Source of the DNA: Streptomyces cyaneus
Lineage (GTDB): Bacteria; Actinomycetota; Actinomycetes; Streptomycetales; Streptomycetaceae
Direction of reading: 5' to 3'
Length of the DNA stretch: 64,000 bases
Assembly: GCF_004028635.1 (NCBI RefSeq)
Contig: NZ_RQJW01000007.1
Coordinates: 124,001-188,000 of the forward strand
Shown: in pieces, positions 1 through 14,983 of the stretch
How the letters are laid out: the number at the start of each line of letters is the position of its first letter
How positions within the stretch are numbered: position 1 is the stretch's first letter
The notes under the pieces: generated by a model
Databases searched by the model: none
Told to the model about the DNA's origin: nothing
The model's input: the letters and a program-made list of their open reading frames with translations, nothing else
Position numbers and translations under genes: made by a program

Positions 1-848
1 GAGTAGGCGCCGGTGGTGTCCAGGGCGACGGTGGCCGCCGGCCGTCCGCAGACCGCGTGCAGGTCGGCCCGTAGCGTGTCCTGCCCGTGGGAGGCGTGCG
101 GCAGCGACAGCCAGGCGACCCGGTGCAGCGGGTGGGCCGTCCTGTCCGGTTCCGGAGTGACCGTTGCCGCCAACCGGTCCAACAGCAGGCAGTCCGTCAC
201 CGTCGCGGCGAGCGCTCCGACGTGGGACAGGCTGTCGCCGCGCGGCCCGTAGGCCCAGCGCTCCCAGGTCGGTTTGAACCCGACGACCCCGCACCATGCG
301 GCAGGGATGCGCACCGAGCCGGCACCGTCCGTCCCGATCGCGATCGGCCCCAGACCCGTGGCCACCGCGACAGCGGCTCCGCCGCTCGATCCACCGCTGC
401 TGCGGTCCGGGCAGCGCGGGTTCACACTGGCCGGGCCGCAGGCACCGACGGTGCTGGCCGACCAGCCGTCCTCGGACGTGCGGGTCTTGCCCAGGATCAC
501 CGCCCCGGCCCGGCGCACCACCTCGACCACGGGCGAGTCCGTCGCCGCCGCCGGGGCGTCCCCTGCGCGCCCACGACCGGTCGGCAGTCCCGCCACGTCG
601 AGCAGGTCCTTGACCGAGACCGGCACCCCGCACAGCGGCGGGGGCACCCTTGCGCTGCGGTAAGCCAGGTCCGCACGCCGGGCCGCGGCCATCGCCGAGT
701 CCCGGTCGACGGACACGAAGGCGGACCCCTCCGGGGTCCCCTCGGTGATCCGGTCGAGCAGCTCGGCGACATGGCTCGACGGCAGCAACGCGCCCTCGGC
801 GTACTGCCCGGTGAGACTCCGCGCCGAGTACCCGGGCCCGCTACGCAT
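1..848 (-). CDS. Amidase-signature family hydrolase (C-terminus beyond window)
   Basis: The first 282 codons are present; the gene runs off the left edge, which is why no stop is seen. It hydrolyses C-N bonds of amides or carbamoyl compounds. The full Ser-cisSer-Lys catalytic set is visible: VSVKD with Lys80, the SSGGSSGGAA loop with the cis-Ser near 155, and TDGAGSVRIPA with nucleophile Ser178. The ATG at 848 overlaps the stop of the upstream gene (TAG at 843-841) by eight bases, so the two are translationally coupled. As the last visible gene of the minus-strand cluster operon it may trim or deprotect the product, or hydrolyse a primary amide; that role is inference. Family assignment is secure, substrate unknown. 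Confidence 0.9.
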   Translation of the reverse strand, partial: MRSGPGYSARSLTGQYAEGALLPSSHVAELLDRITEGTPEGSAFVSVDRDSAMAAARRADLAYRSARVPPPLCGVPVSVKDLLDVAGLPTGRGRAGDAPAAATDSPVVEVVRRAGAVILGKTRTSEDGWSASTVGACGPASVNPRCPDRSSGGSSGGAAVAVATGLGPIAIGTDGAGSVRIPAAWCGVVGFKPTWERWAYGPRGDSLSHVGALAATVTDCLLLDRLAATVTPEPDRTAHPLHRVAWLSLPHASHGQDTLRADLHAVCGRPAATVALDTTGAY

Positions 849-2508
849 AGGTGCTCCGGAACCAGGCGTTGTCGAACTCGGTGACCTTGTCCCGGCACAC
901 GCGGTACATCTCCTCGTGGAACACCCGCAGGACCTGGCCGAAGGCAACGGCGGTCGCCAGATCCGCCGCGGTGAACGGGACGCCACCGGCCCGCATCAGA
1001 CGCAGGTCGTACAGACCGGGGAAGGTCCGGCCGTCCAGGGCCACCTGCAGCGGCACCCGCATCGCATGGCGCACGCCGAACCGCACGTGCCCGGTGTGGT
1101 GCCATTCGGAGTGGTGGGTGAGGTCGGGCATGGTCGGCGCGAAGAACCAGTCGTCGCGCCGGGGATCGTCGGTCTGCCCGAGCACGTGTGGGAGGTAGTG
1201 CCAGCTGTTGAAGCGCATGCGGGCGCTGTAGGCGGCGAGGATCTTGTCGAGTGACGGTTCCCCGCCGCGGTGCTGGTTCGCGAAGGATCCGCTGGGGACG
1301 ACGCAGCAGTAGAAGTCGGTGGTGCTCAGGGTGAGCGCGTGCCGCTCCGGCTCGGAGTCGTCCACGAAGAAGAGCTCCCGCGGCCCGCGGGCCATGGTCA
1401 CATCGGAGCCGGTGGCTGCGGCGAGGTCCTGGAGCAGGTCGCGGAGGATCTCCGCGCGGACGGCCGGACGCTTGCCGACGGCGGCGTCCTGAACCTGGTG
1501 CGCGGCCTCGCGGCCCATGTCGGCCAGGGTCGGCGCCTGCGCCGACCACCTGGACCACCGGTACTGCGGCCGGGCCAGCAGCCGGGCGTCCGGTACGGCC
1601 GGCAGCGACCGCTCCCGCTTGTTCAGGCTCACCCCGTGGATCTCACGGTAGAAGACCGTGCCCTGCCCGAGCAGCTCCGCCCGGCGCTCGGCGAGGCGCG
1701 CGGCCAGGGCCATGAGCGCTTCCGGCTCCGGCGGGCCCCCCGCTGCCACCACCTGCACTCCATACCGCTGCGCGTGTCCCCGCAGAAACTCGCTCAGCCA
1801 GCGCAGGTCGAGGTGGCAGCCGTTGGCCTCCTCCAGCCGGGACGGCGGGCCGCTGGTGATCAGTACCCAGCACGCCGTCACGAAGGCGGCCTCCTCGCCG
1901 CTCCACGTGCCGACCGGTTGGCTGCGCAGCCGGGCCAGCGTGTCGGCAGGGGCACCGGCCGACACCAGGCGGCCCGGGAGGTTGCCCCGGCCCAGGTTGG
2001 TGAAGCAGGCATCGCCCACGTGCAGTTGGACCGGCGCCATGTGCGGCAACAGGTACGCCAGGCGGTCCAGACACTCGTCGACCGCCTCGCCGGCCTGGGC
2101 GGCCAGCCAGTCCCGCAGCCGCAGCCGCTCGGCCTCGGCCGTGCGCCGTTCCACAGCCCAGCGGCGTACCGCTTGGTCCAGCTCGGCGGCAGCGGCGCCA
2201 CCGAGGACGCGTACCAACGGCTCGGAGCCGTCCGGCGCCTGGACCGCCCAGACCTGCCCGGTCCGGCTCAGCCCGACGGGCATGCCTTCGGCCTGCTCCG
2301 TGGCGGCGACCGCCCGGCAGGGCAGCGCGGCGACGCGCCGCAGCAGCTCGCGCGACTCCCCTGGCAGCCGGTCCAGGCCCTGATCGAGAGGGATGCGACT
2401 GTCCATCGACAGCAGCACCCCGGTCACCGCCGCGACTTCGGGAGCTGCGGCCAGGGCGGTTGCCGCGACGTGGCGCAGCAGACCGTCCCACCCCTCACTG
2501 CCGATCAT
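841..2508 (-). CDS. Unknown 555-aa cluster protein with His-rich C-terminal segment
   Basis: I do not recognise the family. The protein is soluble, with no signal peptide or membrane helix. The N-terminal 150 residues are Ala/Leu/Arg-rich and helical-looking. The C-terminal third is more conserved in appearance, with aromatic residues and a dense histidine group at residues 462-481 (H465, H466, H470, H471, H474, H481) followed by HEEMYR near 531, which could bind metal. The start ATG at 2508 overlaps the stop of the VOC gene (ATGA type), and the stop overlaps the amidase start, so it sits inside a tightly coupled operon and very probably acts on the same substrate. An enzyme or an acyl-acceptor scaffold are both possible. 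Confidence 0.85.
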   Translation of the reverse strand: MIGSEGWDGLLRHVAATALAAAPEVAAVTGVLLSMDSRIPLDQGLDRLPGESRELLRRVAALPCRAVAATEQAEGMPVGLSRTGQVWAVQAPDGSEPLVRVLGGAAAAELDQAVRRWAVERRTAEAERLRLRDWLAAQAGEAVDECLDRLAYLLPHMAPVQLHVGDACFTNLGRGNLPGRLVSAGAPADTLARLRSQPVGTWSGEEAAFVTACWVLITSGPPSRLEEANGCHLDLRWLSEFLRGHAQRYGVQVVAAGGPPEPEALMALAARLAERRAELLGQGTVFYREIHGVSLNKRERSLPAVPDARLLARPQYRWSRWSAQAPTLADMGREAAHQVQDAAVGKRPAVRAEILRDLLQDLAAATGSDVTMARGPRELFFVDDSEPERHALTLSTTDFYCCVVPSGSFANQHRGGEPSLDKILAAYSARMRFNSWHYLPHVLGQTDDPRRDDWFFAPTMPDLTHHSEWHHTGHVRFGVRHAMRVPLQVALDGRTFPGLYDLRLMRAGGVPFTAADLATAVAFGQVLRVFHEEMYRVCRDKVTEFDNAWFRSTYA

Positions 2509-3386
2509 CGCGGTACCCCGTCGGGTAGCTGGTTGCGCAGTGGCCGGGGTCCGGTGCCGCCGCCCGGGACCAAGGCGTGGTCACGCCGCCCGACCAGCTG
2601 CAGGACCGATATCTCCGAACGGATCTCGTCGGTGCGGAAGCCGAGGCGGTGAACGCCTGGGCCACCGTTGCGCTCCAGGAACTCGTCGGATTCGTTCGGC
2701 CGGCCGTCCCGGTGGGCGGACGCGGTGAGCGTCACGGAGGGACCCGCCGGGCCGATGCGCAGCACCACCGAGTCGGCCGCATCGCCGGTCCGGCCGGGCA
2801 GTTCGGCGGGAAGCCGGGTAAAGCCCAGGGCGTCCTCGCAGAAGGCGGCGTAGTCGGCGAGACCGTGCGCGGTCAGCAGGATGTCCAAGTGGTCCAGGCG
2901 CAGGGCCCGCCCGGTCGGCTCGGCCGGGGAGTCCGGTACGGCCGGGGAGTCCGGTACGGCCTCCGTGGCCGGGGCTCCATCCGTGGTGATCCACTGCCGG
3001 CCCGACGGCCAAGCCGGCCCGCCCTGCGCAGCGGTCGGCACCAGCGTGTGCCAGACGCCGCCGAAGCCGGACACCATCCAGCCGCCCCTCGGCGCGGCCC
3101 AGGTCCTCGCCCCGGCCGCCCGGGCCGCCTCGACCGTCGCCGCGACGTCGGCGCAGCTCAGGGCGATGTCGAAGACACCGTCCCCGTGATCGGAGACGAA
3201 CCTGCGGGTACCCCAGCCCGAGGTGACGACCAAGAGGACCTCACCCTGCCGCAGCAGTACCGAGCTCCGATCCGCTTGGACGCTGTCCGCGACCCGGGCG
3301 AATCCGAGATCGGCCACCAGGCGGTCCACCACCGCGACCTTGTCCAGCACGAACAGCTCGACATAGGCGATGTCCTGCACAGTCAT
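2505..3386 (-). CDS. HPPD/hydroxymandelate-synthase-like VOC protein, shortened
   Basis: Two tandem vicinal-oxygen-chelate modules resemble 4-hydroxyphenylpyruvate dioxygenase and hydroxymandelate synthase. The first module covers residues 1-110. The second begins at LRLDHLDILL, supplying the first metal His, and continues to GGPGVHRLGF, supplying the second. The protein is 293 residues, against about 350-380 for the family, and ends about 37 residues after the second His, before the place where the third ligand (a Glu in a C-terminal strand) should be. It is therefore either a truncated, non-canonical or regulatory member. Starts 11 bp after the antiporter stop; ends in an ATGA overlap with the next gene. 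A repeated VPDSPAVPDSPAEP linker joins the modules. Confidence 0.8.
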   Translation of the reverse strand: MTVQDIAYVELFVLDKVAVVDRLVADLGFARVADSVQADRSSVLLRQGEVLLVVTSGWGTRRFVSDHGDGVFDIALSCADVAATVEAARAAGARTWAAPRGGWMVSGFGGVWHTLVPTAAQGGPAWPSGRQWITTDGAPATEAVPDSPAVPDSPAEPTGRALRLDHLDILLTAHGLADYAAFCEDALGFTRLPAELPGRTGDAADSVVLRIGPAGPSVTLTASAHRDGRPNESDEFLERNGGPGVHRLGFRTDEIRSEISVLQLVGRRDHALVPGGGTGPRPLRNQLPDGVPR

Positions 3387-3397
3387 GCCAAGCCTCC

Positions 3398-4720
3398 TCA
3401 GGCGGACTGAGTCGCGAACTCACGTTCACGCTCGATCTCGGTGGAGGTCAGCGGCATGCGTGCGGCGGTCCGTCGCAGGATGGGCGGGGCCATCACCGAC
3501 GTGACGACCGCCACCAGCACGACGATGGTGTAAGACCCGCTGGTCAGCACCCCGATGCGCAGGCCGACGGAGGCGAGCACGATCTCCACCACGCCACGGG
3601 CGTTGAGGCCTGCGCCGATGGCGAGCGCCTCGTTGCCCGACAGTCGTCCGACCCGCGCGCCGAGGTAGCCGCCGACGAACTTCGCCCCGATGGCGACGGC
3701 GAGGGTGGCCAGCCCGGCGAGCAGGATCTTCGGACTCTCGAGCGCGGACAGGTCCACCTGGAGCCCGGCGGTGGCCAGGAAGATCGGGGCGAGGACCGCC
3801 ATCACGAAGGGCCGCATGGTGTCCAGCGTTCGGCGCCCGGCCTTGCCCAACGAGCCGATCACGATGCCACACAGGAAGGCGCCCAGAATCGGTTCCATGC
3901 CCAGTGCATGGGTACCGGCCGCGGACAGGATGATCAGCACGATCGCGACCGAGAGGCCGACCTGGGTACCTGCCGGCCCGCCGGACCGCTCGGCCCATCC
4001 CATCAGCCGCGCGATGAGCGGACGGGCCAGGAACGCCGCGAAGGCCAGCACGATCACCAGGTAGCCGACGGACTCGAGAACCACCCCCGAGTGGAGACCG
4101 TAGGTGGCCATGGCCGACACGATCGACAGCAGCATCCAGCCGATGATGTCGCTCACCGCCGCCGAACCGATGATGATCTGACCGACGTTCCGGTGCAGCA
4201 GTCCCATGTCCAGCAACGTCTTGGCGATCACCGGGAGCGCGCTCACCGCCACCGCCACCCCGATGAACAGCGCGAAGGTGAGCCGGTTGCCCGGATCGCC
4301 CATCAATTGCGTGGGCAGCACGAAGCCGAGCCCACAGCCCAGAAACAGCGGCAGCAGCACTGTGCCCGCGCTGACCGAGGCGATCACCCGACGCTTGCGC
4401 TTGAGCAGGCCCAGGTCGATGTGCGCGCCAGTGATCGCCACCAGCAGCAGCACGCCGAACTGCGACACGGCGCTGAGCAGGTGCATCTGCTCGGGATCGT
4501 GGGGCAGCAACCAGTTGGACAGGCCCGGTAGCCAGTTGCCCAGCAGCGAGGGCCCAAGCACGACTCCGGCGGTCAGCTCCCCGACGACCGGCGGCAGTTT
4601 CACTCGCACGGCGAGGCGGCCGAGGACGATCGCGGTGGCAAGCAGCAGACCCGCCTGCAGCAGGAAGATCAGGATCTGGTGGTGGGTGAGACCAGGCACT
4701 GGTCCCGTGGCCAGCGTCAT
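3398..4720 (-). CDS. CPA2-type monovalent cation/proton antiporter
   Basis: An integral membrane protein of 440 residues with about 12-13 hydrophobic helices and the typical opening of Kef/NapA-like exchangers (helix 1, then LPPVVGELTAGVVLGPSLLG). The transport-site segment in the middle reads SAALPVIAKTLLDMG-like and AVSDIIGWML, the latter holding the conserved membrane Asp. There is no C-terminal RCK/TrkA-N domain. It exchanges Na+ or K+ for H+; the exact ion cannot be read from sequence. Such antiporters recur in Streptomyces clusters next to exporters and may give self-protection or pH/ion balance during export. Starts 24 bp after a small upstream ORF. Confidence 0.9.
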   Translation of the reverse strand: MTLATGPVPGLTHHQILIFLLQAGLLLATAIVLGRLAVRVKLPPVVGELTAGVVLGPSLLGNWLPGLSNWLLPHDPEQMHLLSAVSQFGVLLLVAITGAHIDLGLLKRKRRVIASVSAGTVLLPLFLGCGLGFVLPTQLMGDPGNRLTFALFIGVAVAVSALPVIAKTLLDMGLLHRNVGQIIIGSAAVSDIIGWMLLSIVSAMATYGLHSGVVLESVGYLVIVLAFAAFLARPLIARLMGWAERSGGPAGTQVGLSVAIVLIILSAAGTHALGMEPILGAFLCGIVIGSLGKAGRRTLDTMRPFVMAVLAPIFLATAGLQVDLSALESPKILLAGLATLAVAIGAKFVGGYLGARVGRLSGNEALAIGAGLNARGVVEIVLASVGLRIGVLTSGSYTIVVLVAVVTSVMAPPILRRTAARMPLTSTEIEREREFATQSA

Positions 4721-4970: not shown

Positions 4971-6239
4971 TCAGGAGCCGAGTGGCTCCGGGATCCCCTT
5001 CGCCTCCTCGGACTCGGCCGGCCGCTGCTGCCGCTCCAGCAGAGCCACCATGGGGCGCACCAGGAGTGAGGCGAGCAGGAAGAAGGCCGCCAGACCCAGC
5101 CAGCCGACCCGGCCGGTGCCGATCACCACGGTGGTGAGCAGGCTCGGCCCGATGATGCCCTCGCTCGTGGAGCCGAGGTTGAAAACCGAGAGATAGGTGG
5201 CTTTCTGGCCCTCGGGAGCGAACAGGTACGACAGCTGCCAGCCGCCGACGGACTGCCACAGCTCGCCGAAGGTGAGCAGCACCAGACCGATCAGCAGCAC
5301 CGTGAGTGCCACCGCCGCGCTCGTACCCTGGGCGTACGCGAAGGCCACGCTGCACGCGGCGAGCGCCAGACCACCGCGGCGCAGCGCCCGGCCGGCCCCC
5401 TTGGCGTCGTCGGCCCCTCTGGAGAAAGGGACTTGCAGCACCACGGCCAGCACGGTGTTGATGAACACCAGGATCGGCACCGCTGCGGTGGGGGCCTCGG
5501 TGGCCGTCACCGTCCACAGCGGGATGCCGACCGAGAGGATCGTCATGTGCAGGCAGAGCGTGCCGTTCAAGGTGCTCAGCGCGACGTAACGCCAGTCGCG
5601 GAAACCCTTGATGGCACTGAACACGCTGCCGGAGGCACGGGCGGCCGTGCTGCGGGGCAACTTCAGCCGCATCAGCAGGCAGGCCGAGACGGAGAAGGCC
5701 AGGGCGTTGCCGAGAACCAGCAGCCGGAAGGCCGAAGGGTTGGACGCCGACAGCAGTGGGGCGGCGAGCAGGGCGCCCAGCGAGAACCCGACGTTGCGGA
5801 CCGTGCGGATGATCGCCATGGCCCGGAGCCGGTCCTGGGGACTGGTGGTCTCGGCGACCACCGCCTGGTTCAGGGGCGGGGTCGACCCTTCGGCCACCGC
5901 CATGCACGAGGCGACCACCGTGAAGCCGATCGGGTCGCTCACGAAGCAGAGCCCGATGAAACAGCAGGCACGCCAGAGCTGAGTGCCGATCAGGGCTCGC
6001 AGCGAGCCGAACCGGTCGGCGAGGGCGCCGACCGGCACCGTGGCCAGGAAGCCGAACACTGCCGCGGTGGCGAGCCCGAGGCCGATCTGAGAGTTGCTCA
6101 GGCCGACGTAGCGGATGAAGAAGACCGTGGAGCCCGCAAGGAAGAGACCGGTGCCGATCGAGCTGATCAGAGCCGTGAGCGCAAAGGTCCGCGCGGCGGG
6201 GGTGGACGGCACGTAGTCCTTGAACGAGGGCAGCTTCAC
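4971..6239 (-). CDS. MFS-type exporter
   Basis: A 422-residue major facilitator with about 12 hydrophobic helices and the loop 2-3 signature GALADRFGSLRAL. The GTG at 6239 is preferred over the upstream in-frame ATG at 6272, because it is preceded by GGAGGAACGGC and forms a GTGA overlap with the stop of the ATP-grasp gene. Its place between biosynthetic ligase and antiporter suggests that it exports the cluster product and gives self-resistance (inference). Confidence 0.9.
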   Translation of the reverse strand: MKLPSFKDYVPSTPAARTFALTALISSIGTGLFLAGSTVFFIRYVGLSNSQIGLGLATAAVFGFLATVPVGALADRFGSLRALIGTQLWRACCFIGLCFVSDPIGFTVVASCMAVAEGSTPPLNQAVVAETTSPQDRLRAMAIIRTVRNVGFSLGALLAAPLLSASNPSAFRLLVLGNALAFSVSACLLMRLKLPRSTAARASGSVFSAIKGFRDWRYVALSTLNGTLCLHMTILSVGIPLWTVTATEAPTAAVPILVFINTVLAVVLQVPFSRGADDAKGAGRALRRGGLALAACSVAFAYAQGTSAAVALTVLLIGLVLLTFGELWQSVGGWQLSYLFAPEGQKATYLSVFNLGSTSEGIIGPSLLTTVVIGTGRVGWLGLAAFFLLASLLVRPMVALLERQQRPAESEEAKGIPEPLGS

Positions 6240-7516
6240 CGCCGTTCCTCCTCTGCGGCACCATCCGTGCACACCACGGCGATCCGCCCCGCGACGTCCT
6301 CGGCGTTGGCGGCCGCGTCGGGGCCGTCCGCGCCCGTGGCGATCACATGACCGGCCCGTTCCCAGGAGCTGGTCGTCGGCCGGACCGTGTCCCCGGGCGC
6401 GACGCCGACGTGCACTGAATGCACGCCCTTGGCAGCTCGCGCCTTCTCCTCGCCCAGGACCTCGGCCACCACACCGGGAGGCGAGCTCAGGAAGCGGATT
6501 GCGGCGCCCCCCAGCGGGTCGCGCGGCCCGACTGGACCGCCGCCCTCCAGGATGCCGAGCAGGTCGTCGGCCAGGGAGCCGCCGTAGGCGAGGTCGATCA
6601 GCTGCGGGATGTTGTCACCAGGGAGCCGGGCCGCGCACTCGACCAGGTACGGGCCGCCGTCGCCGAGGATCCACTCGGCGTGCAGCACGCCGTTGCGGAA
6701 GCCGGCTGCCTCGGCCAGCAGCCGGACGGCCCGGTACAGCGCCTCCTCGGTGGCGGCGGGAAGCCCGGCCGGGACGGTGTGGGCCAGTTCGACGGGGTAA
6801 CGGGACTGCAGCACGGTCTTGGCCGTGATGTTGCGGAAGCCGACCACACCCTGGTGGACCAGGACCTCGACGCTGACCTCAGGACCGTACAGACGCTGCT
6901 CAACCAGGTAGCGGTCGGCGTCGGCGTACCGGGCGCGCTGCCGGGTGTCCCTGGCCCCGGCGGTGTGCGACCACAGCGCGTGAACGTCGTCATCGGGCTC
7001 CAGAAGCTGGACGCCGAGGCTGGCCTGACTGTTGCCCGGCTTGATGACACAGGCCCGCCCGTGCACGGAGCGGAACCGCTCGACCTCGTCCGGCCCGCTG
7101 ACCTCGGCCCAGGCAGGCTGGGCGATGCCGGCCGCACCGGCCACAGCGCGCAGCCGCGCCTTGTCGCGGAACACCCGCGCGGCGGCGAGCCCGGCTCCGG
7201 GCACGCCCCAGGCGTCGGCGAGCGCGGCGGCCGAGACCACCCCGTACTCGACACCGGGCATCACCGCCTGCACACGCGGCGGACGCTGCACGGCGGCCAC
7301 GACTCGCTCGGGGTGCTCCTCGTCTTGGGTCGGGGCCTCCAACAGAGCCGCCACGCAACGGAACTTGGCGGCCTGCTCGTGGGCTCGCCGAGCCTCGATG
7401 ACGCTCGATTCCTCCAGGATCAGCACGGACCGTTCCGGGAGGCGTTCCTCCAGGTCGGAGAGGCTCCCGACGCTGAAGCCTACGAGGACGTGGGTGATGG
7501 AGTCGCTCAGGGACAT
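6236..7516 (-). CDS. ATP-grasp amide ligase 1
   Basis: A 426-residue stand-alone ATP-grasp protein of the carboxylate-amine ligase type (BacD/carnosine-synthase-like). Visible elements in order: a Rossmann-like N-terminal domain, the central nucleotide-binding strand CVIKPGNSQASLGVQ (Lys near 173), the hinge LVEQRLYGPEVSVEVLV, and the metal-binding ECAARLPGDNIPQ segment near residue 310. It activates a carboxylate as acyl phosphate and couples it to an amine. Overlaps the MFS start by a GTGA. There are 262 bp between its start and the radical-SAM gene. With two further ATP-grasp genes on the other strand, it implies that at least two or three peptide or amide bonds are made without an NRPS. 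Confidence 0.9.
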   Translation of the reverse strand: MSLSDSITHVLVGFSVGSLSDLEERLPERSVLILEESSVIEARRAHEQAAKFRCVAALLEAPTQDEEHPERVVAAVQRPPRVQAVMPGVEYGVVSAAALADAWGVPGAGLAAARVFRDKARLRAVAGAAGIAQPAWAEVSGPDEVERFRSVHGRACVIKPGNSQASLGVQLLEPDDDVHALWSHTAGARDTRQRARYADADRYLVEQRLYGPEVSVEVLVHQGVVGFRNITAKTVLQSRYPVELAHTVPAGLPAATEEALYRAVRLLAEAAGFRNGVLHAEWILGDGGPYLVECAARLPGDNIPQLIDLAYGGSLADDLLGILEGGGPVGPRDPLGGAAIRFLSSPPGVVAEVLGEEKARAAKGVHSVHVGVAPGDTVRPTTSSWERAGHVIATGADGPDAAANAEDVAGRIAVVCTDGAAEEERR

Positions 7517-7778: not shown

Positions 7779-9122
7779 CTACTCTTCGAAGGGGAACTTG
7801 TCGGCGAGCGCCGGCTTCAGGTCCGACAGCCACTTGGCTTCCGGGTCGTAGTGGGCAAAGAACGGCCGCCCCACCAGCGACGCGTCGCGCGCCTGGATGA
7901 GCCGGAGCATGAACAGCCGCTCGCCGTTGATCTCCGTGACGCCGTCGACGCATACCTTGCCCGGCGTGGCCGACATGGAGGGGCCGCGAACGGTCCGGCA
8001 GAGGCCGGAGACCGAGGTATAGGCATCCCGGAAGATTTCGTACGCCCGGCCGAGCGGGACCGCGAAGTAGTCCTGCGGGCCGGTGTCGCGCTCGACGAAC
8101 ATGTAGTAGGGGATCATCCCCATTGCGTGCTGCTGCCGCCACATGCTCGACCAGTCGCTGGGATTGTCGTTGATCGACCGGATCAGAGGGGCCTGCGTCC
8201 GGATGGTCGCGCCCGTCGACTGGATGCGGCGGACCGCCTGGGAGACCAGCTGCGACTCCATCTCCCGCGGATGGCTGAAGTGCGCCATGAAAGCGAGATT
8301 CTTGCCGGCCTTGGTGACCCGCTCGAACAGCCGCAGGGTGGCGTCCGCGTCCGGGTCGGTCACGAACCGCTGCGGCCAGTACGCCAGGGCTTTGCTCCCG
8401 ATCCGGATCGATTCGAGCTGCGGCAGCTCGAGCAACGGCTCGATGTAGCGCTTGAGGACCGTCTCGCCCATGATCATGGGATCGCCGCCGGTGATGAGCA
8501 CGCTGGTGACGTCAGGGTGCGCCACCAAATATTCCACCAGGCCGTCGATGTCGTCGGAAGCGAACTTCAGGTCCGGCTCCCCGACGAACTGCGCCCACCG
8601 GAAGCAGTACGTGCAGTATGCATGGCAGGTCTGCCCCTGCTTGGGGAAGAACAGCACCGTCTCTCGGTACTTGTGCTGGATGCCCTGCATCTCGTCGGGA
8701 ACGTTGAGATCCATCTGCCCGGCGGGATGGGGGTTCAGCTTCATCCGAACCTCGTGGGCCGCGCGCTGGATCTCCTTGGGCGGTGCCTCCTGGCGGAGCA
8801 GGTCCGCGATCCGGGCGACGTCCGAGTCGGGCAGCATGTCCGCCTGGGGGAAGACGAGCCGGTAGATCGGGTCGTCGGGGGCGGCGGACCAGTCGATCAG
8901 CTCGTCCACCACGTAGGCGTTCGTCCGAAAGGGCAGCACCGTCGCCACGGCTCGAGTCGCGAGCCTCGCCTCGGGCCCGAGCCCCGCTCGGGCCACCAGT
9001 TCATCGAGGTGCTTGTTGGTGTAGGCGCGAAAGCGTTGCGTGGCGCGCACCGGCGTGCCGGCCAACCCGGCGGGCGGTGCGTCATTGAGCAATGTCACTC
9101 GTGGACTCTCTTCTGGTGTCAT
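7779..9122 (-). CDS. Radical-SAM/PLP aminomutase, lysine-2,3-aminomutase family
   Basis: A 447-residue KamA-family enzyme. The [4Fe-4S]/SAM motif is CHAYCTYC (C166, C170, C173). The GGDPM motif near 212 follows, and a late Gly/Ser loop GPSMSATPGK offers K389 as the PLP lysine. The family moves the alpha-amino group to the beta carbon. Hand alignment to clostridial lysine 2,3-aminomutase puts D319 at the position of Asp293, but R345 at the position of Asp330, so the substrate may not be lysine. The ATG at 9122 is preferred over a further-upstream in-frame start at 9380, because residues before it look non-coding and run through an inverted repeat. It probably supplies a beta-amino acid to the ligases. 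Confidence 0.9.
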   Translation of the reverse strand: MTPEESPRVTLLNDAPPAGLAGTPVRATQRFRAYTNKHLDELVARAGLGPEARLATRAVATVLPFRTNAYVVDELIDWSAAPDDPIYRLVFPQADMLPDSDVARIADLLRQEAPPKEIQRAAHEVRMKLNPHPAGQMDLNVPDEMQGIQHKYRETVLFFPKQGQTCHAYCTYCFRWAQFVGEPDLKFASDDIDGLVEYLVAHPDVTSVLITGGDPMIMGETVLKRYIEPLLELPQLESIRIGSKALAYWPQRFVTDPDADATLRLFERVTKAGKNLAFMAHFSHPREMESQLVSQAVRRIQSTGATIRTQAPLIRSINDNPSDWSSMWRQQHAMGMIPYYMFVERDTGPQDYFAVPLGRAYEIFRDAYTSVSGLCRTVRGPSMSATPGKVCVDGVTEINGERLFMLRLIQARDASLVGRPFFAHYDPEAKWLSDLKPALADKFPFEE

Positions 9123-9424: not shown

Positions 9425-10348
9425 TCAGGCCTCGCGGGGAGCCAGGAGCGTGCGAGCCTCGCGGGTACCGTCGAAGTACGGGCTGGCGTAGACCAGTTCG
9501 CCGTCCTCGGTAGCGACCTTGTCGTTGAAGTCGCGGCCGATGTCGTAGTTGAACGTGGCCCGCGGGGAGGCGAGGTTCTCGACGCGACGCTTGTCGTACC
9601 GGGCGTCGACCGAGGAGAAGCGCAGCGCGTAGGCCAGCCGCGACGGGATCGGGCCCTCCTCGAGCTTGATGCTGCGGTGCAGCACGTACTTGTCGAAGAG
9701 AAGGGCGTCGCCCAGTTCGAAGGAGTCCTCCACCGCGAAGTGGTCCAGCAGCGCCTTCGTCGAAGGCGAGTTGAGCGGGCCGTCCTTGAGGGTGCTGAAG
9801 TCCTCGTAGCTAAGGTCGCGGCCGGCCTCGACCTCGCTCCTGCAGTACTCGGGCACCAGGTTGAAGTGCTGGTAGACGAACTCGCCCGAAAGGTGCTGCT
9901 TGGACACGTACTTCATGCCGCCGCGCTGGCCCTGGGCATCGATGGTGCACAGCGGCGTCCAGACGGTGAAGCCTGCGTCCTGGCGGCGCTGGAAGCCGAA
10001 GCTCTTGTTGCCCACGTGCCACGGGAACCCGGTGCTCTTGCCCTTCGCCAGTTCGAATCCGAGCCCCTGGGTGAAGAACAGCTGCTGACCGGTCAGCTTG
10101 GCTATGGCGGTCGAGAAGGTCTCGTCGCGCATCACGTCGAGAACGGTGGGGTCGTCGTTGCCCACGTCGTACTTCAGCTTGCTGAAGCCCTTGCCGTAGT
10201 TGTCCGACGGGGGAGCGACCTCCGAGGTGCAAAGCTTCTGCATGTGCTCGATGAGTTCCGGCGAGAAGATGCCCTTGAGCTTCAGGAAGCCGTGCTCACG
10301 GAAGTTCTGAATATCTGCGTCAGAGACAGAAAAGCTCGGATTGATCAC
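9425..10348 (-). CDS. PhyH-fold Fe(II)/2-oxoglutarate enzyme with HxG motif: candidate radical halogenase
   Basis: A 307-residue cupin-type oxygenase of the phytanoyl-CoA dioxygenase superfamily. The proximal metal motif is FPWHVGNKSFGFQ: H111 is in place, but residue 113 is Gly (GGC at 10010-10012) where hydroxylases have Asp/Glu. The distal His is H224 (VLHRSI) and the 2-oxoglutarate Arg is R237 (PSRLAYALRF). Loss of the acidic ligand to Gly or Ala opens a chloride site in SyrB2 (HxA), WelO5 and BesD (HxG); BesD-type enzymes chlorinate free amino acids. No other HxD/E lies ahead of the W130 core strand. First gene of the minus operon, facing a 590-bp regulatory region. A halogenase is favoured; an inactive or unusual oxygenase remains possible. 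Confidence 0.85.
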   Translation of the reverse strand: MINPSFSVSDADIQNFREHGFLKLKGIFSPELIEHMQKLCTSEVAPPSDNYGKGFSKLKYDVGNDDPTVLDVMRDETFSTAIAKLTGQQLFFTQGLGFELAKGKSTGFPWHVGNKSFGFQRRQDAGFTVWTPLCTIDAQGQRGGMKYVSKQHLSGEFVYQHFNLVPEYCRSEVEAGRDLSYEDFSTLKDGPLNSPSTKALLDHFAVEDSFELGDALLFDKYVLHRSIKLEEGPIPSRLAYALRFSSVDARYDKRRVENLASPRATFNYDIGRDFNDKVATEDGELVYASPYFDGTREARTLLAPREA

Positions 10349-11363: not shown

Positions 11364-12584
11364 GTGGAAAACCTGATCATGTCGCCAATCAGTGCGTTGC
11401 TTCGCAGTACGCCTCGGGAATGGTCCGACGCAACCCAGAACACGGCCCATCTGTTGACGGGAACAGACTGCGATCACCCGCCGGAATGGATCAAGGCGCA
11501 CTACGGTGACGCGTTCCAGGAAATTGAGTGCTTCGAGAATTACGAGGCGAACGACCTGGTCGCGAAGCGGGCCGACCACCTGCTCGCGAACGGCGGGTTC
11601 AAACGGGTCATCCCCATGACAGAGGCAGACGTCATGCGAGCGGCATGGCTGCGCAAGCGCCACGGGCTGACCGGTGTCCCTCCCGAGGACGCGGTCTACA
11701 TGCGCGACAAGTTCCTCATGAAGCAGTGCGCGTCTGCGGCAGGCGTTCCGGTGGCTCATGGCCGGAAGGTCCGCAACGCCTTCGAGCTGCTCGACTTCGC
11801 GGACGAGGTCGGCTTCCCGGTCGTACTGAAGCCGATCTCGGGCCGGGGATCGGCCGAGACCTTCATCCTGGACTCGGAGACCGAGCTGGACTCCCTGCTG
11901 AGTGCGGGAATCTTCGCCAGGGCCGACCGCGAGCCGGACATGCTCGCCGAGGCCTTCGTCGACGGGACGCAGTTCCACGTCGACGGCTACTACTCCCAGG
12001 GCGTCTGCCGCTTCATGAGCGCGGCTCGGTATGTCGGCAGTCATATCGATTTCTTTCAGGGCGGCGGGTTCTTGGGCAGCACGGTTCTCGACGCCCGGAG
12101 CGACATTTTCCGGGAACTCACCGAGTTCACCAGGAACCTCCTGGAGAAGGTGCTTCCCTTTGGGCCCGACGGCCTCTTCCATGTGGAGATCTGGCAGCGC
12201 CCGAACGGCGAGCTCGTCCTCGGCGAGGCCGCACAGCGGCTCGCCGGCGGTCCGATATTCGAAGAGAGCCGGGCCAGCTTCGGGGTCGATTACAAGATGG
12301 ACGCAGTCCGTGCGTTCTGTGGGTTCGAACCGTGTGACTCGCCGGGAACAGAGGCCCTGCAGAAGCAGATCGCCGGGCACGGAGAGATCTCCTCCACCAG
12401 GGCCCTGACCAAGGCCCCTCAGTCGGCTCCGTTCGACTGGGTGCTGGACTACAAGTTGCGGCACACCAGCAGCGAGATCGTGACTTTCGTCGTTTCCGGC
12501 GCGACCAGTGACGAGGTCGAAGAACGCCTTCGCATCTGTACCGACTGGTTCTACGCGAATGCGGAGTGGTCGGATGAGTGCTGA
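11364..12584 (+). CDS. ATP-grasp amide ligase 2
   Basis: A 406-residue ATP-grasp ligase. Signature parts are the second nucleotide Lys in FPVVLKPISGRGSAETF, the hinge MLAEAFVDGTQFHVDG, and the metal acids in FHVEIWQRPNGELVLGEAAQR with RLAGG after it. GTG start with GAGG 5 bp upstream; ATG at 11379 is an alternative. It belongs to the same general carboxylate-amine ligase group as ligase 1 but is clearly divergent from it, so the two should have different substrates. Its end overlaps the next ligase by 11 bp. Confidence 0.9.
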   Translation: MENLIMSPISALLRSTPREWSDATQNTAHLLTGTDCDHPPEWIKAHYGDAFQEIECFENYEANDLVAKRADHLLANGGFKRVIPMTEADVMRAAWLRKRHGLTGVPPEDAVYMRDKFLMKQCASAAGVPVAHGRKVRNAFELLDFADEVGFPVVLKPISGRGSAETFILDSETELDSLLSAGIFARADREPDMLAEAFVDGTQFHVDGYYSQGVCRFMSAARYVGSHIDFFQGGGFLGSTVLDARSDIFRELTEFTRNLLEKVLPFGPDGLFHVEIWQRPNGELVLGEAAQRLAGGPIFEESRASFGVDYKMDAVRAFCGFEPCDSPGTEALQKQIAGHGEISSTRALTKAPQSAPFDWVLDYKLRHTSSEIVTFVVSGATSDEVEERLRICTDWFYANAEWSDEC

Positions 12585-13854
12585 AAGAGCAGAGCTTGCC
12601 GAACACCTTCTCATGGTCGGTGGAGCACGCGAGGTCCCGAGGAATTGCTTCCAGGCTGCCCCCGGGCTGCGGATCAGCGTGATCTGTCGGCAGGAGTTCG
12701 AAAGCAAGGTCTGGGACAAGAAGGACCTGCACCGGCTGCTGCTCCTCGATCCTGAGACCAGCCGGGAGGAATGGCTGGGCATCGTCCGGGCGATCCATGA
12801 GAACGACCGCATCGATGCGATCGTCAATTTCACCGAGTCGGATGCGGACAAGACCGCCTACATCGCCGAGAGGCTGGGGCTGAGGTGCTACTCCGCGCAG
12901 ACCGTTCAGTGGGTCACCGACAAGTACCTCATGCGCGCCCGCCTGAACGAGACGGGCGTCGATCACACTCCCGCGATGAAGGTGGTCGGCCCGGACGAGC
13001 TCGCCAAGGCCGCCGCTGAGCTGGGCTACCCCGTCATCTGCAAGCCCACAGGAGGCACCGGAAGCCTGGGCATCAGCAAACTGGAGTCCCCCGCGGACGT
13101 CCCCCGGGCCTTCACCTGGAGCAAGGAAGGAACTTCGAGCCTGGACGGGGACGAGCTCATAGCCGAGCCCTTCCACCAGGGCCAGGAGTTCAGTGTCGAG
13201 TGCATCAGCGAGACAGGCCGACACTACGTGGCAGGCATCACCCAAAAGTCCATCGACCAGGACAGCTTCGTCGAAGTCGGGCATCTGCTGCCGGCGCCGC
13301 TTCCTGACGCGGACGCGGCAGCCATCTCCGACACCGTTCTCCGGATGCTGGACGCGCTGGAGATCCAGGACGGCCTGACCCACACCGAGGTGATCCTCAC
13401 CGAGAACGGTGTCCGGATCATCGAGACCCATCTACGCTACGGCGGCGACAGGATCCCCAACATGCTCACGGCCGCGACGGGGATCGATATCCAGAAGGCT
13501 TGGGCTCGTCAGGCGGTCGGCCACTCGATCACCGCGGAGATCGAGGAGGCGATAGAGCGTCATCGGAGCGGCGAGCGCGCGGAGTTCGCAGCGATCCGGT
13601 ACCGGTGCGCCGACCGCCGGGGCGTACTCACCGCAGTCCACGGCATCGAGGAGGCGCACGGGATGCCCGGCGTGATGGAGGTCGCCGCTGTGGCCGAGGT
13701 CGGTGAGCAGGTCGGCGATCTCACCGATTCGCTCGCGCGACTCGCGTTCGCCTGGGCACTCGGCGCGACGCCGGAGGAAGCCACAGAGCGCGCTCAGGCG
13801 GCAGTGGAGTCGCTCACCTTCGATCTCGACGACGAACCCGGTGGCCAGACGTGA
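12574..13854 (+). CDS. ATP-grasp amide ligase 3
   Basis: A 426-residue ATP-grasp ligase with the pre-grasp domain, YPVICKPTGGTGSLGISK, the hinge LIAEPFHQGQEFSVEC and the metal acids in THTEVILTENGVRIIETH. The C-terminal lid region ends in an acidic tail. The ATG at 12574 is chosen over the in-frame upstream start at 12508 because it lies in GCGGAGTGGTCGG context and gives an 11-bp overlap with ligase 2, so the pair is translationally coupled and may form a complex or act in sequence. Confidence 0.9.
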   Translation: MSAERAELAEHLLMVGGAREVPRNCFQAAPGLRISVICRQEFESKVWDKKDLHRLLLLDPETSREEWLGIVRAIHENDRIDAIVNFTESDADKTAYIAERLGLRCYSAQTVQWVTDKYLMRARLNETGVDHTPAMKVVGPDELAKAAAELGYPVICKPTGGTGSLGISKLESPADVPRAFTWSKEGTSSLDGDELIAEPFHQGQEFSVECISETGRHYVAGITQKSIDQDSFVEVGHLLPAPLPDADAAAISDTVLRMLDALEIQDGLTHTEVILTENGVRIIETHLRYGGDRIPNMLTAATGIDIQKAWARQAVGHSITAEIEEAIERHRSGERAEFAAIRYRCADRRGVLTAVHGIEEAHGMPGVMEVAAVAEVGEQVGDLTDSLARLAFAWALGATPEEATERAQAAVESLTFDLDDEPGGQT

Positions 13855-14158: not shown

Positions 14159-14983
14159 ATGACGGTGGCGTTGATCGACTCAGGGTTCGGACTCCTCTCC
14201 ACTACGGGCTGGCTCCGGCACCTGGCCCCGGAACTCGACCTGCTGTTGCTACTCGATCCCGACGGCGCTCCCTGGGGATCGAAGACGGCCTCCTTCGTCA
14301 CGGAACGTCTGTTGACCGCCGCTCAGTTCGCCATCGAGCGAGGCGCGCAGGCCATCGTGGTCCCCTGCAACACCGCCACCGTCACCGCGATCGACGCTCT
14401 GCGCGAGAGGTACGAGCCGCGCGTACCTGTGATCGGAACCGTGCCCGCCGTGAAGCCGGCCGCAGCAGTTGGCCAAAGCATCGCCGTGTGGGCAACCGTC
14501 CGGACCACGGCGAGCAAATACCAGGAGCGCCTGATCGCGGACCACGCGAACGGCCGGCCCGTGGCGCGTGTCGCATGCCCCGGCCTGGCGGAGGCGATCG
14601 ACCACGGCGACACCGCCGCAGCAACGGCAGCCATCGCCGACGCGGCCGAGCGAACCCCCGAAGACTGCGACTCCGTGGTGCTGGGATGCACGCACTACCC
14701 CCTGGTTGTGCCAGAGATCCTACGGAGCCTGCCCAGTGGAATCACTCTGTACGACAGCGCGGAGGCGGTCGCCCGTCAAACGCTGCGACGATTGGGGAGA
14801 GCCACGGACTCGCGCAGCACGATGGGCGCCATCGACGTGGTACTCAGCGGTCGACCCGGAAGCCTCCCGACCGGCGGCCACGCCTACCCCGTGGGTCGCG
14901 CCCTCGCCGCAGCAGAGCGGGTACCCCGCGACATTCTCACCTCAGCAGTGACTCGCTCCCCGATGACTTCACCGGCGATCTGA
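14159..14983 (+). CDS. Aspartate/glutamate racemase family protein (MurI-like)
   Basis: A 274-residue protein with the two catalytic cysteines of glutamate racemases: the first in AIVVPCNTAT (near residue 69), the second in VVLGCTHYPLV (near 180). The N-terminus reads VALIDSGFGLLS, a variant of the usual DSGxGG start. Length is normal for MurI. Sequence outside the motifs is loose, so this looks like a secondary copy rather than the housekeeping murI. It lies just after the ligases and could supply a D-amino acid to the product, or be unrelated to it. Confidence 0.8.
   Translation: MTVALIDSGFGLLSTTGWLRHLAPELDLLLLLDPDGAPWGSKTASFVTERLLTAAQFAIERGAQAIVVPCNTATVTAIDALRERYEPRVPVIGTVPAVKPAAAVGQSIAVWATVRTTASKYQERLIADHANGRPVARVACPGLAEAIDHGDTAAATAAIADAAERTPEDCDSVVLGCTHYPLVVPEILRSLPSGITLYDSAEAVARQTLRRLGRATDSRSTMGAIDVVLSGRPGSLPTGGHAYPVGRALAAAERVPRDILTSAVTRSPMTSPAI

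Follow-up and report, generated by a model that had tools for sequence, protein, structure and literature searches.

The window, a stretch of 64,000 nucleotides from Streptomyces cyaneus, carries on the minus strand, at positions 7779 to 9122, an intact open reading frame of 447 codons when it is counted from the ATG at 9122. The likely true start is the GTG at 9098 (V9), which would give a protein of 439 amino acids, because the homologues L028 and L121 open with VTLL and VTLA, as the protein does at V9; residue numbers follow the ATG 9122 start throughout. Scanning for promoters and terminators yielded no signal beyond chance expectation. The same-strand neighbours of the gene encode a PhyH-type halogenase, an ATP-grasp ligase, an MFS exporter, a CPA2 antiporter and an HPPD-like protein, and the opposite strand adds a further pair of ATP-grasp ligases and a MurI-like racemase:

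841..2508, minus: protein of unknown family, 555 aa; 40% identical in two halogenase sister clusters (L224/L225)
2505..3386, minus: HPPD-like VOC protein; common to sister clusters
3398..4720, minus: CPA2 cation:proton antiporter; about 70% identical in halogenase sister clusters
4971..6272, minus: MFS exporter
6236..7516, minus: ATP-grasp L-amino acid ligase, LAL_C2
7779..9122, minus: KamA-type radical SAM/PLP aminomutase-like gene
9425..10348, minus: PhyH-type Fe/2OG halogenase-like gene with a PWHVG motif; nearest solved structure, the biotin halogenase BtnX
11364..12584, plus: divergent ATP-grasp ligase
12508..13854, plus: ATP-grasp L-amino acid ligase, LAL_C2
14159..14983, plus: Asp/Glu racemase, MurI-like, below the MurI cut-off

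The protein at 841-2508 matches nothing by sequence in Pfam, NCBIfam or the PDB, and its gene adjoins an amidase-like gene. The racemase is probably pathway-specific or serves self-protection, since the genome holds a second MurI-like gene (contig C2).

A second copy of the halogenase, with 79% identity, is found at another place in this genome, and further homologues occur in G528, G501, G521 and a Streptomyces plasmid. The sister clusters in which these lie share GNAT, TauD, M20 peptidase, ATP-grasp, MFS, CPA2 and HPPD-like genes, not every cluster showing every gene in the stretch read. Their assignment as Bes-type (terminal alkyne) clusters was rejected, as Pfam gave GNAT, TauD, M20 and ATP-grasp in place of BesB and BesC; the conserved cluster of this BtnX-like halogenase (9425-10348 in the window; L222-L226) resembles an undescribed pathway. 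On the Klebsiella aerogenes plasmid pC9_001 (L229, 6862-9601), a BesC-like Haem_oxygenas_2 gene and a LysE exporter gene flank a halogenase homologue of 43% identity, an arrangement that suggests that this conjugative plasmid encodes a pathway for halogenating and cleaving an amino acid. A halogenase is paired with LysE in a similar way in Pantoea, and in Dinoroseobacter a halogenase lies beside a BioY biotin transporter.

Family, fold and residue equivalences

The protein matches TIGR00238 and the models for lysine, glutamate and arginine 2,3-aminomutases and EpmB with E-values of 1e-24 to 1e-36, and it falls below every curated cut-off. With 125.1 bits (E 2.8e-36) on TIGR00238, where the cut-off is 199.2, it is homologous to this family yet lies beyond its curated boundary. 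It scores 98 on the lysine model TIGR03820 (cut-off 525), and its 85.8 bits on the glutamate model TIGR04368 (cut-off 650) are no better than its 85.5 bits on the arginine model TIGR04468 (cut-off 600). The sole solved relative found by sequence is the lysine 2,3-aminomutase (LAM) structure 2a5h, to which the AlphaFold (AF2) model of the protein, with a mean pLDDT of 78.7, aligns with a Z of 28.7 and an rmsd of 3.8 over 325 residues, against a Z of 14.2 for the runner-up structure. The alignments place the marks of the KamA type, namely the CxxxCxxC motif, the carboxylate Arg and the PLP Lys, the last two at LAM positions 134 and 337. On the predicted structure, the protein is thus a KamA-type radical SAM/PLP aminomutase-like protein with the LAM fold.

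Equivalences to LAM were taken from phmmer against 2a5h, from MAFFT with real LAM, AblA and EpmB, and from a profile-profile hhalign comparison of a 52-member family profile with a seven-member profile of enzymes of the D type, which carry Asp at the Asp293 site. LAM numbering was checked by comparing the authentic Acetoanaerobium enzyme (L120) with 2a5h, which gives PYYIYQCD293 and SGYC323VPTFVVD330APGGGGK337. All three alignments are ungapped in the pocket region and give the same equivalences, among them P338-Y339-Y340 with P286-Y287-Y288 and C375 with Cys323. The residues of interest, with their conservation in the sequences that share R345 (the R345 clade) and in the D type, are as follows:

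8604..8627, minus: C166-x3-C170-x2-C173, [4Fe-4S]/SAM motif; kept in all rows checked
8598..8600, minus: R175, equivalent to Arg134 of LAM (substrate carboxylate); Arg in 156/156 of the clade and 28/28 of the D type
8166..8168, minus: D319, equivalent to Asp267 of LAM in a conserved 'ND' and not to Asp293 (three alignments)
8088..8090, minus: R345, equivalent to Asp293 of LAM (three alignments); invariant in 156/156 clade sequences
7995..7997, minus: R376; basic in 154/156 clade sequences and 0/28 of the D type
7986..7988, minus: R379; Arg in 148/156 clade sequences, basic in 0/28 of the D type
7977..7979, minus: S382, equivalent to Asp330 of LAM; Ser, Val or Ile in the clade, once Ala, never acidic
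7956..7958, minus: K389, equivalent to Lys337 of LAM (PLP Schiff base; alignments)

Both of the Asp residues with which LAM holds the epsilon-ammonium group of lysine are therefore replaced, Asp293 by R345 and Asp330 by S382. The sequence-only reading of this locus, which located R345 and D319 correctly in ATG numbering, had claimed that the lysine pocket is altered, and the alteration proves to be stronger than was claimed, as both Asp are lost and not one. Its equivalences do not hold: it had matched R345 to Asp330, an assignment ruled out by phmmer, MAFFT and hhalign alike, and it had taken D319 for a retained Asp293, when the Asp293 site is in fact occupied by Arg and the Asp267 equivalent is kept in most D-type enzymes too. 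An Asp at the 330 position had been named beforehand as the finding that would count against an altered site there, and the alignments show Ser. In the model, the pocket loops 341-350 and 371-390 rank among the regions of lower confidence (pLDDT about 63-66), so it gives no reliable side-chain direction in the pocket.

Distribution and genomic contexts of the R345 clade

The 191 distinct sequences gathered comprise 156 with Arg, 28 with Asp and 7 with another residue at the 293 site. The residue pattern is not a matter of chance, since R345 is present in every clade sequence, as against Asp in the 28 of the D type; these counts measure conservation and not independent events, because the sequences are related. 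In a maximum-likelihood tree, all of the R345 sequences used (47 rows, from actinobacteria, a Mycetohabitans plasmid and rhizobial plasmids) form a single clade with support of 100/99, apart from the D type, and LAM, EpmB and other Asp-type proteins fall outside it; the deep branching order is uncertain because long branches were flagged. A Paenibacillus homologue retains R345 and the basic 376 and 379 positions. Several members of the clade are publicly annotated as 'lysine 2,3-aminomutase'.

The nearest relatives of the window protein, with 73-80% identity, are Streptosporangiales genes, mostly in a conserved position close to plsX and argS, and in the tree the window copy groups with Nonomuraea (96/94). 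A homologue is present in only 70/392 sampled species of the window genome's own genus, mostly with 50-64% identity. The simplest reading of these sequence relationships is that the window copy was probably acquired horizontally from Streptosporangiaceae.

Two further copies in the clade (L106, 8862-10157, and L107, 8249-9610), which share a locus near GroEL, lack K389, the PLP lysine, along with further conserved residues, and on this sequence evidence may have lost aminomutase function. Other KamA-type groups of the same genus (L187-L197, L202-L208) have Asp/Thr, Gln/Asp, Val/Met and Met/Pro pairs at the 293/330 sites, so the substrate diversification of the fold looks wider than the named enzymes.

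The neighbours of other clade genes are diverse. They include an NRPS with a carbamoyltransferase (L103), an AMP ligase with a GntC/VioD-like aminotransferase (L112, L161), an ATP-grasp gene (L160), a carrier protein with acyl-CoA dehydrogenases and an ATP-grasp gene (one context), a plasmid NRPS/type III PKS cluster (L114) and, on rhizobial plasmids, aspartate kinase, Asd, EctB and ATP-grasp genes. On the Rhodococcus plasmid pDK3 (L115) the clade gene lies with cupin, MetRS-like and SidA-type genes and ATP-grasp ligases; the first three make up a type of gene set familiar from pathways that form N-N bonds. Such surroundings suit an enzyme that provides an unusual amino acid as a building block, without naming its substrate. 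In most Streptosporangiales, the gene occupies its fixed chromosomal place by plsX/argS, with no hint of a pathway among its neighbours.

Proposed reaction and competing readings

The reading given most weight, tentatively and at somewhat less than an even chance, is that, by analogy with the C. difficile glutamate 2,3-aminomutase (EAM), the window protein would be a radical SAM/PLP 2,3-aminomutase whose substrate is an anionic amino acid, with glutamate the likeliest. Because the lysine-gripping Asp residues are replaced by basic or neutral ones, an acidic amino acid such as glutamate is the probable substrate; as judged from these residues, lysine is unlikely and an acidic substrate plausible. 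The retention of the catalytic residues argues for the standard radical 2,3-amino shift, and the reversal of charge at the side-chain site for an anionic substrate. EAM is reported, in work by Ruzicka and Frey in 2007, to carry Lys and Asn at the 293/330 sites, and the pair of a basic and a neutral residue expected of such an enzyme by this precedent is present here as R345/S382. L-glutamate is the leading candidate because of the Lys/Asn precedent and because of the genetic support, in the case of incednine, for the supply of beta-glutamate by a radical SAM protein (PMC11284099).

The fold, the residue equivalences, the kept catalytic residues, the conservation across the clade and the cluster context come from the analysis itself, while the reaction described next is an inference, as are its acidic substrate, the choice of glutamate and any part in making a peptide. 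As in LAM, the [4Fe-4S] cluster held by C166, C170 and C173 would bind SAM, which would yield the 5'-deoxyadenosyl radical. K389 would carry PLP, R175 would grip the alpha-carboxylate of the substrate, and R345, aided by R376 and R379, would grip the side-chain carboxylate, although R345 could pair with E344 or D346 instead of the substrate. The amino group of the acidic amino acid, most likely L-glutamate, would then shift from C2 to C3, after which the neighbouring ATP-grasp ligases may condense the resulting beta-amino acid into a small peptide that the MFS pump would export.

The same residue pattern can accommodate a different substrate. R345, R376 and R379 might hold an anionic or larger group, as in alpha-aminoadipate, an amino acid that is phosphorylated or N-acylated, a dipeptide or an aminoacyl group on a carrier; three basic residues exceed what one carboxylate needs, and several clade genes adjoin carrier proteins, AMP ligases or ATP-grasp ligases. 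However, the contexts do not all share any one class of substrate, and the core Streptosporangiales locus is without such neighbours. This reading is regarded as a lesser but serious possibility. That the radical SAM/PLP machinery serves some chemistry other than the shift, such as epimerisation, elimination or oxidation, would be in keeping with the change of both side-chain ligands and with the diversity of gene contexts, but is unlikely given that the known catalytic residues of aminomutases are kept. An ordinary lysine 2,3-aminomutase, which is what the annotation of relatives and the LAM fold would imply, is very improbable: the ungapped alignment leaves neither of the residues that bind the epsilon-amino group, and the score on the lysine model is far below its cut-off, even if D346, beside R345, might assume the Asp role through a local shift.

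The sequence-only reading had proposed a substrate that is acidic or already modified, possibly the product of the adjacent halogenase. The first part is supported by the replacement of both Asp and by the extra basic residues R376 and R379; the halogenase part is not, as the clade is far wider than the halogenase clusters. The two genes do adjoin on the same strand, and an amino acid is a possible substrate of the halogenase, given the LysE-type exporters beside its homologues in Klebsiella and Pantoea and the BesC-like gene in Klebsiella. Against this, no aminomutase was found in the sister clusters (the same-genome copy, G528, G501, G521 and the Streptomyces plasmid), the neighbourhoods of about 50 other R345-clade aminomutase genes showed no halogenase motif of the HxG type, and the nearest solved relative of the halogenase acts on biotin. 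The two enzymes therefore need not occur together, and there is little reason to assume by default that the aminomutase acts on what the halogenase makes. Chlorolysine, rejected as unlikely in view of the sister clusters, would moreover retain the epsilon-ammonium group, whose Asp partners are gone. A chlorinated amino acid from the halogenase as substrate is accordingly considered quite improbable.

If the substrate is acidic, as the preferred reading of a glutamate-type aminomutase holds, then the lysine 2,3-aminomutase annotations of the clade are wrong, a beta-amino acid, probably beta-glutamate or a related compound, has gone unnoticed in many actinobacterial clusters, and the fixed Streptosporangiales gene gains a testable function. 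The signature of R345 with basic 376 and 379 sets a large body of 'lysine 2,3-aminomutases' in the databases apart from real ones, and the clade offers new biocatalyst candidates and a clean charge-swap system (R345D/S382D). A broader proposal, put forward as speculative, is that the clade would be an uncharacterised, widespread and misannotated family of anionic-substrate 2,3-aminomutases, a Streptosporangiales chromosomal gene repeatedly recruited to natural-product clusters, whose beta-amino acid is made by no characterised enzyme of the fold.

Comparison with known systems

IdnL4, an actinobacterial radical SAM protein in the incednine biosynthetic cluster, has been proposed as a glutamate 2,3-aminomutase that converts L-Glu to beta-Glu; it is required in vivo for the 3-aminobutyrate unit of incednine, and its activity was not seen in vitro (PMC11284099). 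The window protein is likened to it as an actinobacterial radical SAM protein for which the same conversion is proposed, and a search near clade members for an IdnL4-like setting, marked by a PKS (KS motif) or decarboxylase-like motifs, found none. Arginine 2,3-aminomutases of the BlsG type are likewise members of the KamA-type family that make a beta-amino acid for a natural product, but the nearest homologue found (L094, itself below the TIGR04468 cut-off) retains both Asp, and no over-cut-off arginine enzyme was found in 148 class members. EpmB, which acts in the beta-lysylation of EF-P, shares the family and the catalytic residues, with about 28% identity over the core, but has D or E at both sites and no basic 376 or 379.

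LAM itself (C. subterminale KamA) has the same fold, the CxxxCxxC motif, the carboxylate Arg and the PLP Lys, at 22% identity in the structural alignment, and differs at the two Asp sites and in having no counterpart of the extra basic residues at 376 and 379. No over-cut-off glutamate 2,3-aminomutase was found in 392 congeners. EAM is reported to be alike in that both lysine-binding Asp are replaced, one of them by a basic residue, and to differ in having Lys/Asn where Arg/Ser stand here; the window protein, which is far below the cut-off of the glutamate model, probably belongs to a lineage separate from EAM.
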